A DNA stretch of 64,000 nucleotides from Opisthocomus hoazin (taxonomy: Eukaryota > Chordata > Aves > Opisthocomiformes > Opisthocomidae): positions 1,441,001-1,505,000 of the forward strand of contig NC_134442.1 of the NCBI RefSeq assembly GCF_030867145.1. The letters run 5' to 3'. The translations under genes and the position numbers were made by a program. Shown here piece by piece: positions 1 to 64,000 of this stretch. The notes beneath the pieces are model-generated. The model saw only the letters and a list, made by a program, of their open reading frames with translations. It was not told the origin of the DNA and made no database searches. Each line of letters opens with the position of its first letter. Position 1 is the first letter of the stretch.

Positions 1-1462
1 ACTACAACAACATCACGCAGAGGAACGACATTGCCTTGCTGGAATTGGACCAGCCTGTCCTGTGCGGCTACTACGTGCAGCTTGCCTGTGTGCCCGACGC
101 CTGGCTGAGAGTGTCGCAGCTGAGAAGCTGCTACGTCAGTGGCTGGGGTTCCACGACTGCAAGAGGTGAGTTCCCAAAAGGGAGTGGTGTCCTGAGCGCA
201 GGCTGGGCACACTGGGGAGGCGGGGTGGGCTTCCTGACAGCAGAGGCGAAAGCCAGAGTCGGGCTGCGGGGTGCATGCCGATGGAGAGGTGGGCCTGGCC
301 CATTACCCCAAGCAAGACAGAAGGGAGACAGCAGCGGCACAGTGCCTCTGGAGACGCAAAGCCCAGCCCTAGGGCAGGGCTTCAGCCAGACACCGGGGGG
401 GTGGGGGGGAGGAGAGGAGAACTGGCAGCGAGCTGCTGGCTGTTAACTCCTTTCTGTGCTGACAGCTGGGGGACCAAGTTATGTCCTGCAGGAGGCCAAG
501 GTCCGCCTCATCGATATCAAGCTCTGCAACAGCAGCCGCTGGTACGGAGGGGCCATCCACAGCCACAACTTGTGTGCTGGCTATCCGCAGGGCGGCATCG
601 ACACCTGCCAGGTAGGAGCGTGCTACAAGTCCACCCCCAACAGCACAGGCAGCCCTGTGGCAACCGCCCAAACCTGCCCCAGCGCGTGCTTTGCCTGGCA
701 AGTCAGCCTGCCACTGCTGGGTCCCCTCCACTCTTGGGGTTCACCTCCCCTTGCCCAGATGCAGGTCCTTGCCCAGGGCCGCCCTTGTCCCAGAGGCCTG
801 GCTCTCTGCCCACAAAGCCCATCTAGTGCTCTGGGCAGCCCACAGCTCCAGAGCCCAGTCCTGCAACATCCGCCTTCCACACATCCAGGATCACTGTGCA
901 AAGAGGACAGAGAGAGAGCCCTGCCTGACTGGCCCACCACCCCCTGCCAGACAAGCTTCTGTAGGCTCCAGCACCTGAGCAGAGCCTTTGTGTGCAGTCA
1001 GGACAGCTCTGGCAGCTGCTGCGGGAGAGAAGGAGCCAGCCAGAGTGCTGACCGGGGCCACCCAACACCACCTTAACCCTCTCTCCTCCGCTGCAGGGTG
1101 ACAGCGGTGGTCCTCTGGTCTGCAAAGATAACACCAACGACTACTTCTGGCTTGTTGGAGTGACCAGCTGGGGGAGAGGCTGTGCCAGACCAAACCAGCC
1201 TGGAGTCTACACCTCCACGCAGCACTTCTACGACTGGATCCTGCTACAGATGGGACTGCGCTCAGCAAGAAGAGATAGTCCAACAGCACAGCCATGGAGT
1301 CATTTTCTCTCCACCTCAAGCCCCTCTCAGAGGCCAAGGCCAACACCAGCACCAACACAGTCGGGCAGCATTAGCTCCTGTCCATTTCCACGCCAGAAGC
1401 TGGTGGAATTCTTTACTCTTCTGAAGGAGCTCCTGCAGTTCCTCAGGGGAAAAAAGGCTTGA
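1..1462 (+). CDS. ACR: Acrosin-like protease, gene 1 (5' part outside window)
   Basis: Exons visible: end of exon 3 (1-165), exon 4 (466-611), exon 5 (1097-1462, stop TGA). The window opens inside the codon for His125 of the full protein, so the signal peptide, light chain and catalytic His lie off the left edge. Asp134, the S1-pocket Asp225 and the GDSGGP serine (Ser231) are present. Residue 269 is Thr; residues 94 and 115 cannot be seen. A private base change lies in intron 4 near position 870. Splice sites match the complete copies (GTGAGT donor of exon 3, GTAGGA donor of exon 4). Confidence 0.93.
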
Positions 1463-1623
1463 GGAGCAGGATCAACAGGAACCAGCGCAGGCTGCACTGG
1501 ACCATGATCATTTCCTTCTGGGGCAATGCCTGCTGCTCCAAAGGCAGCCTCAGCATCAAAGGCCTGCTCTGTGCTGCCCGCTCTCCTCCCTGTGGAGGAT
1601 GAAGCATTAAAGGACTGGGGACA
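1463..1623 (+). other. Proximal 3' UTR of gene 1
   Basis: This is sequence between the stop codon and the LTR. It holds an ATTAAA variant poly(A) signal at 1606-1611, 13 bp before the LTR begins. The same segment follows every gene. It contains no plausible separate gene. The copy after gene 2 has a private base change at about 6895. Confidence 0.6.
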
Positions 1624-1994
1624 TGTGAGCAATCCAGCATTTCTCTAGAAGGCCATGAAGCCTTAGCCTAAGGCCGCAGAGCCTTAGCATAAGGCCGCAA
1701 GAGCATCCAGAGGACAAACTGCGGTTGGAATGAGGAAGTAAGAATGCAGAGACAAACAACTCCCAGATGCCGAAGAGGAACTTGCCGCCTGCAAGAAGGC
1801 CACGAGCACTGCGCGTGAGCTAGTGACGCACACCAATCATAATCGAGTTACTATGTGAGTTAAATTGATTATCACCAATGGGGAATCGCCGCGTATGTAG
1901 TGGGGAATATAAAAGTGAGCTATCTGAGGCTAATAAACGGCTTGTACGTGATCACATTGATCATCGTGTCGAGTCCGGTTCTTCCTCCGCAACA
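1624..1994 (+). mobile_element. Solo LTR of an endogenous retrovirus, spacer 1
   Basis: A 371-bp segment begins TGTGAGC and ends CCGCAACA, the TG...CA form of a retroviral LTR. In order it has a pair of 21-bp-spaced hairpin repeats (1660-1674, 1681-1695), two CCAAT boxes (1833-1837, 1875-1879), a TATAAAA box (1908-1914) and AATAAA (1932-1937), followed by a U5-like segment. The short TATA-to-AATAAA distance resembles avian alpharetrovirus-like or ERVK-like LTRs, but the family is inferred. It lies in the gene's orientation and looks whole as an LTR. No primer-binding site or internal retroviral genes follow, and I see no target-site duplication. It predates the array because every spacer has it at the same place. 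Confidence 0.72.
1908..1937 (+). promoter_or_regulatory. LTR core promoter and poly(A) signal
   Basis: TATAAAA at 1908-1914 is followed 17 bases later by AATAAA at 1932-1937. A CCAAT box ends 28 bp upstream of the TATA box. In LTRs this pair marks the U3/R region, giving both a start and an end signal for transcripts. Here the AATAAA could terminate acrosin transcripts and the TATA could start transcripts running toward the next gene. Activity is not shown by sequence. The same pair occurs 446-475 bp after every stop codon. Confidence 0.5.
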
Positions 1995-62038: not shown

Positions 62039-62970
62039 CCACCTGCAAAAATCTGCTGCTGGCATCACAGAGTATCCACAGAAGACAAGTGACGTTCTCC
62101 AAGGCCACCTTCTGCCTGCTCTAAGCAGATATCGGGCACCACCTTCAGGTCAATTTTTGAAAACCAAAGCAGCGTGGAGTGCGGTTTGTTTGGGGACGTC
62201 TTCTAGTGCCTATGAAGCCATGCTGCTTCCAATTGCACGTCTGTGGCCACGCATAGCAGGCAGTGCGACTGCCCGCACCAGTGTTGGCCCAGAAGAGCAA
62301 TGTAGCTGGTAGACAGCAAGGACACGGAGCCTGTCAGAGGGCGTTGCGGTGGCAGACAGAGCCAGCGTGGAGCGTGCTCCATCTGTGTTTCGCTGTGCTT
62401 TGTGCAGGACAGGATGGCAGTGCTTGGCTATACTTGGTTGATTTGGCTTGCACATCCCTGCTTGCCTGCCGCGGCTGTAAGCAGATTGGCTCTTCAGCCC
62501 CCAACCAGGTGCCTACTGCCTGTAGTAGTTCCGTTCTGCGGTGTCAGTTTCTTTGGGAAGGACCTGGTGGCAAGCGGCTGCGCAGAGCGGGGTGGCAGTG
62601 AACTTCCCAAAGAGGCTATGGTGCCACACTTGGTTTTCCCGGCTAGCTGTTAGCAGGCAGCACTGGGAGGCAGGCGCTGCTGCCTGCCACGAGGTCTGCA
62701 GAGCCTCGTCCCGCAAGCAGAGCATTCAGCGGGGGTCTGCTGGGGGTGTCCGAGCCCAGCTTCTGCCTCCCCTCCTGCTCGGAACCCTCCATGTTGCCCG
62801 CCCCCCCCTAGAATCCACCGTGCCCAGCACCCGGAACCAGCCACTCTGTGACATCAGCCACGGGGCCAAGGGTTCCCTGGGCAGCGGGACTGCTGCAGGC
62901 ACTACGTCGGCTGCTGCACTGCTGGCCACCAGCTCTCGCTTCTTGCAGCTGCCACGTGCCGCTGGCAGCC
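62039..62970 (+). promoter_or_regulatory. 5' flank of gene 13
   Basis: 932 bp, common right-block type (G, C, C, A). CRE-like octamer present. No gene seen. Confidence 0.45.
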
Positions 62971-64000
62971 ATGAATTTTCTCCCCGTCCTGGTCCTGCTG
63001 GCCGTGTGCTGGCCGGCGTACGGCATGTGGGACAACTGTGGGTAAGTGGCCCGAGGCTCTGGGAGGGAGCTGGGGCAGCCCTTGTGGGCTTCACTGGCGG
63101 GTGCTCGCTTTTCCCCCTGGCCACACCAAAGCTTCCCAAACGCCATGTGGGAGCCTCAGTTCCTTGCCAGCAGCCAGGCCGCTGGCACAACTCGCCTACG
63201 GGGCTCAAGCACAAACAGGGGTAGATGGACGCATGCCCCACAGGGTTCCGCGGTCCTGCTGTCCATGCAGCGCCTGGTGGGGGGGAAGGGGGCTGACCTG
63301 CAGCCTCAACAGCAGCAAGCCACCGAGCAGGACATTCATCAGTTTCTGCTTACAGAGGGACCTGCGGGCACCGGCCCATGGATTCTTACTACGGCATGTC
63401 ACGCGTCGTGGGTGGCACCGATGCCCAGCTAGGGGCCTGGCCCTGGATCGTCAGCATCCAGAAGCCCATCATAGGAGGCATAGCGCATGTCTGCGGAGGG
63501 TCGCTCATCAGCCCACAGTGGGTGCTGACAGCAGCCCACTGCTTCATCACGCCCGGGTAAGGAGGACCAGGGAACAGCCCCACAGCACTAGCACGTGCCC
63601 GCTCCACAGCAGCACGTGCTAGCGCCATCCCGCTTCCTTGCAGCACGCCCAGTGCCTGGGCACTGCCAAGCCCAGCTGAGAGACTGCTCGCGAGAGGGCT
63701 GGGCTCACGCCACGGCTTCCTAGCAGCCTCCCGCCCGACACTCCTTGTGCCCAAGGCGTGCTAGGGCAGTCGCACCCTCCGTAGCGCTGCCTTCCTCTCT
63801 GCCCTGTGCAGCAGAAGGCAGGCAACTGCTGGGCTGCTTGCAGCACGTGGCTGCGCTCCCTCTGACCCCTCTCTCCACCTGCCTTGCAGGCACATCATCA
63901 TGTGGCACGTGGTGATCGGGGCCAGCCACTTGACTCAGCTGGGCCCTGAGACCCAAGTGCGCACTATTAAGCGGCTACTGGTTCACGAGCACTACAACAA
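62971..64000 (+). CDS. ACR: Acrosin-like serine protease, gene 13 (3' part outside window)
   Basis: Exon 1 62971-63041, exon 2 63356-63556, and the first part of exon 3 from 63890 to the window edge. Signal peptide, light chain with C23 and C27, activation site and His85 are present; Asp134, Ser231 and the tail lie off the right edge. Ile94 and Arg115, as in gene 12. The window ends only about 20 bases further along the unit than where it began, so it spans almost exactly twelve periods. Confidence 0.93.

Follow-up and report, generated by a model that had tools for sequence, protein, structure and literature searches.

The window, a 64-kb stretch of hoazin DNA without any N and with a G+C content of 59%, carries a plus-strand gene that is repeated once in every unit of a tandem array. 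The exons of this gene were set by hand from splice signals together with a trypsin-family reading frame. Five coding exons of 71, 201, 266, 146 and 366 bp, interrupted by introns of 300-485 bp, specify a protein of 349 residues. Base composition, intron length and the 48% identity of the product to a mammalian acrosin would point to a sauropsid host, probably a bird. Twelve start sites were found, 11 of which lead into complete genes and one into a gene cut by the right edge of the window.

All gene copies lie on the plus strand. At the left edge, the 3′ part of a predicted acrosin gene (1..1462), placed by unit alignment, comprises the end of exon 3 (1-165), exon 4 (466-611) and exon 5 (1097-1462). 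The first complete gene (gene 1; 4313..6794, 349 aa) has its exons at 4313-4383, 4698-4898, 5232-5497, 5798-5943 and 6429-6794, and its product belongs to the trypsin family (PF00089) with acrosin as the top match. Identical proteins are encoded by gene 6 (30979..33459) and gene 7 (36310..38791). Relative to gene 1, the substitution H115R is present in gene 2 (9645..12129), gene 3 (14980..17464), gene 4 (20315..22796), gene 5 (25647..28128) and gene 10 (52307..54788); it is accompanied by T269M in gene 8 (41642..44123) and gene 9 (46974..49456), and by T94I in gene 11 (57639..60120). The right edge interrupts a further copy, of which the 5′ part (62971..64000) holds exons 1 and 2 and the start of exon 3. 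In all 11 complete genes the frames are open, the GT-AG junctions coincide, and the product has 14 cysteines and the catalytic triad H84/D134/S231; none carries a nonsense, frameshift or splice change. Four coding positions vary among these 11 genes (unit positions 1218, 5240, 5303 and 4360), one of them silently and the others giving rise to the three substitutions above.

Positions 1-63990 are composed of 12 whole, contiguous head-to-tail units, with plus-strand starts at 1, 5333, 10665, 16000, 21335, 26667, 31999, 37330, 42662, 47994, 53327 and 58659; the last 10 bases of the window begin a thirteenth. Unit size is 5,331-5,335 bp, as given by start-to-start spacing and by the recurrence of the repeat through the whole window. 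Alignment of the 12 units yielded 5,335 columns, with SNPs in 31 and gaps in 4. The 66 unit pairs differ by between 0 and 19 SNPs, with a mean of 10.3 (0.19%). Chance cannot produce 64 kb of tandem repeats that are 99.8% identical. The window thus contains 13 instances of the acrosin gene (11 complete and two cut by the window edges) and, because the array runs off both ends, the assembled sequence has at least this many. The first-pass annotation, which described at least 13 near-identical tandem copies filling the window head-to-tail and continuing beyond both ends, was therefore correct on each of these points, provided that partial copies are counted. With regard to intron length, an insertion of 3 bases into a G-rich part of intron 3 is common to units 3 and 4 (10665-21334), and unit 10 has one additional G at the same site.

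Identity of the encoded protein

A Pfam search assigned the gene 1 protein to PF00089 (trypsin) at 220.9 bits. When compared with solved structures, the protein matched ram and boar beta-acrosin (PDB 1fiw and 1fiz) most strongly, at 258.8 and 243.3 bits, followed by plasma kallikrein and TMPRSS2 at approximately 199 bits, the next solved protease scoring 199.1 (all among the best 60 of 560 matches). Alignment of the predicted heavy chain with ram acrosin revealed identity at 116 of 243 residues (48%) and correspondence of all 10 heavy-chain cysteines. The heavy chain begins with the motif VVGG after Arg40, placing the predicted activation site at R40|V41. An aspartate lies six residues ahead of the active serine S231, a feature of proteases with trypsin-like specificity. 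The predicted light chain is short and possesses two cysteines (Cys23 and Cys27), while the tail of the protein is proline-rich. A search with the 22-residue light-chain stretch alone matched no acrosin light chain at E values up to 10, a weak result given so short a query. The five coding exons are also the number found in mammalian ACR.

Judging by the protein matches and the heavy-chain features, which agree with the identity first proposed for the gene, we take the encoded protein to be acrosin itself, the protease of the sperm head (acrosome). Each complete copy should accordingly encode a 349-residue proacrosin with a signal peptide, a light chain, a trypsin-like heavy chain and a proline-rich tail. 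Trypsin-like genes with 32-40% identity were found at nine loci in bacterial and archaeal contigs, all titled Actinomycetota; the phage collection and viral contigs gave no match.

The spacer between genes

Genes 1 and 2 are separated, from stop codon to start codon, by a spacer of 2,850 bp (6795..9644) that is repeated in the other units. We infer that the untranslated regions and the promoter must lie within this 2.85 kb. Nine of 72 reading frames were submitted to Pfam. Eight of these were spacer frames, two of them running into exon 1 or intron 1, and gave no match at E values up to 0.01; the ninth, corresponding to exon 5, was assigned to PF00089. Rfam returned no match in positions 1-11000 at the gathering score, nor in one unit at E values up to 1, and no tRNA was found in positions 1-10664. 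No weight was given to a CRE-like octamer located at 4191 (122 bp upstream of the start codon), since approximately 0.3 occurrences are expected per unit at equal base frequencies.

A candidate endogenous retrovirus LTR was observed at 1624-1994 and recurs in the other units. This stretch starts with TG, ends with CA and contains a TATA box at 1908 and an AATAAA signal at 1932. Its ends lack a flanking target-site duplication of 4-6 bp, and a scan of other TG/CA ends produced nothing beyond four 4-bp matches that could arise by chance. As part of the unit, the LTR-like stretch would predate the amplification. Within it, at 1649-1700, lies a short tandem repeat (period 21 bp, 2.5 copies) that is present in all 12 units. 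The spacer additionally contains two inverted repeats, pairing 7729-7824 with 8618-8713 (92%) and 8086-8128 with 8578-8620 (91%). Together they resemble a single element that occurs in both orientations, with an additional 261 bp in one of its copies.

Variation among units and growth of the array

Neighbouring units resemble each other more closely than expected by chance. Their distances summed to 66 compared with a permuted mean of 113.5, and 3 of 20,000 permutations gave a total this low. Units 8-12 form a second block, marked by six shared alleles that none of units 1-7 possesses. Unit 9 otherwise belongs to this block, but its alleles at unit positions 3975 and 4247 are found elsewhere in units 4 and 5 only. 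Furthermore, the four-gamete test failed for 49 of 190 pairs of informative SNPs, although part of this signal may reflect recurrent mutation, since CpG transitions account for 13 of the 31 SNPs.

The likeness of neighbouring units, together with the four-gamete failures, points to an array that grew through unequal crossing-over and whose copies exchanged sequence, and bears out the tandem amplification that had been suggested on first inspection. The pattern of variants suggests that unequal crossing-over would have taken place where units were misaligned, expanding the array, and that continued crossing-over together with gene conversion may have maintained the similarity of the units. Our principal reading, to which we assign a probability of roughly 85%, is thus a recent tandem amplification of ACR that was grown and homogenised by unequal exchange and that likely raises the dose of the acrosomal protease.

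Copy integrity, dose and biological meaning

The array might instead be a passive one formed in a recombination-prone place, conferring no dose benefit, with some or even most of its copies silent. The distribution of SNPs between coding and other sequence is in keeping with such an origin: four fall within the 1,050 coding bp and 27 within the remaining 4,282 bp, so that depletion of coding SNPs, which was sought, was not significant (Fisher p 0.50) and both classes of position vary at similar rates. We simulated the absence of constraint by scattering 31 SNPs and 3 indels randomly in 20,000 runs. Protein-changing variants made up 70% of simulated coding hits, close to the three of four observed, and all frames, start and stop codons and splice junctions were left intact in 35% of runs. 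The lack of any nonsense, frameshift or splice change in the 11 complete genes argues against a passive array, albeit with low power; as the simulation indicates, intact frames are equally compatible with function and with recent neutral copying, and are by themselves no sign of selection. We consider a passive origin possible, with a substantial minority chance of being correct.

Conversely, the copies might have been favoured by selection for dose through sperm competition, or might belong to a sex-linked or germline-restricted ampliconic setting. The first-pass annotation had offered dosage selection, sperm competition and a germline or sex-linked setting as explanations, and the sequence lends them no support. 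Acrosin is established as a sperm protein, and sex chromosomes are known to carry arrays of genes expressed in the testis. Against this, the window is silent on chromosome, sex and mating system and holds no flanking marker, and none of the selection tests on the coding sequence was positive. We therefore regard selection for dose or an ampliconic setting as rather doubtful. A fuller version, in which a still-turning-over, lineage-specific array, possibly sex-linked or germline-restricted, would consist of dozens of copies raising dose under sperm competition, is in our estimation unlikely.

Expansion of a single- or few-copy gene by the assembler could also yield near-identical repeats, and the differences are indeed few overall: units 6 and 7 are separated by no SNP, their sole difference being one deleted G of a GG pair, for which reason the number of units may be inaccurate. 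An assembler that mechanically duplicated a single stretch, however, would not leave 11 private SNPs (of 31) spread over six of the 12 units, nor variants shared by adjoining units in a block structure; an assembly artefact is accordingly very improbable. Equally little credence attaches to a trypsin-family paralogue that resembles acrosin without being acrosin, since, although the comparison set held mammalian acrosins only and identity to the ram enzyme is 48%, the acrosins score at least 44 bits above all others (solved structures only; best 60 of 560 matches) and the heavy-chain cysteines are the same.

Under the preferred reading of a recent amplification homogenised by unequal exchange, each 5.3 kb unit would supply a whole five-exon gene together with its 2.85 kb spacer, and it is probable that every copy consequently has its own promoter and polyadenylation signal. 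Male germ cells would then probably receive more of an acrosomal protease that hardly varies between copies.

Comparison with known systems places the array in context. The resemblance to ram and boar beta-acrosin extends from the heavy chain and its cysteines to the catalytic triad, the VVGG motif after Arg and the proline-rich tail. Mammalian ACR, by contrast, is single-copy, in agreement for that group with the first-pass description of acrosin as a usually single-copy gene, and has a longer tail, whereas here there are at least 13 tandem instances. The ampliconic testis-expressed families of vertebrate sex chromosomes likewise consist of many near-identical copies with a role in the male germline; the hoazin array differs from these in its short head-to-tail unit of 5.3 kb. 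Homogenised arrays such as the rDNA and histone clusters are similarly arranged head-to-tail, show the greatest likeness between adjacent units and undergo exchange among them, but in the present case the repeated gene is spliced and encodes a secreted protease. Male germline genes are already known to form tandem arrays; what would be unusual is the amplification of acrosin.

The role of acrosin is debated, with knock-outs differing between mammals. If the array is real and expressed, the hoazin would be an animal with the gene for a sperm-head protease present at least 13 times in one stretch. The variants within the array provide markers both for unequal exchange and for which copies are transcribed. 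A many-copy lineage would allow the dose of acrosin to be related to sperm traits and to mating system and, if the interpretation invoking dose and sperm competition were true, the array would represent a natural experiment on acrosin dose as a limit to fertilisation.
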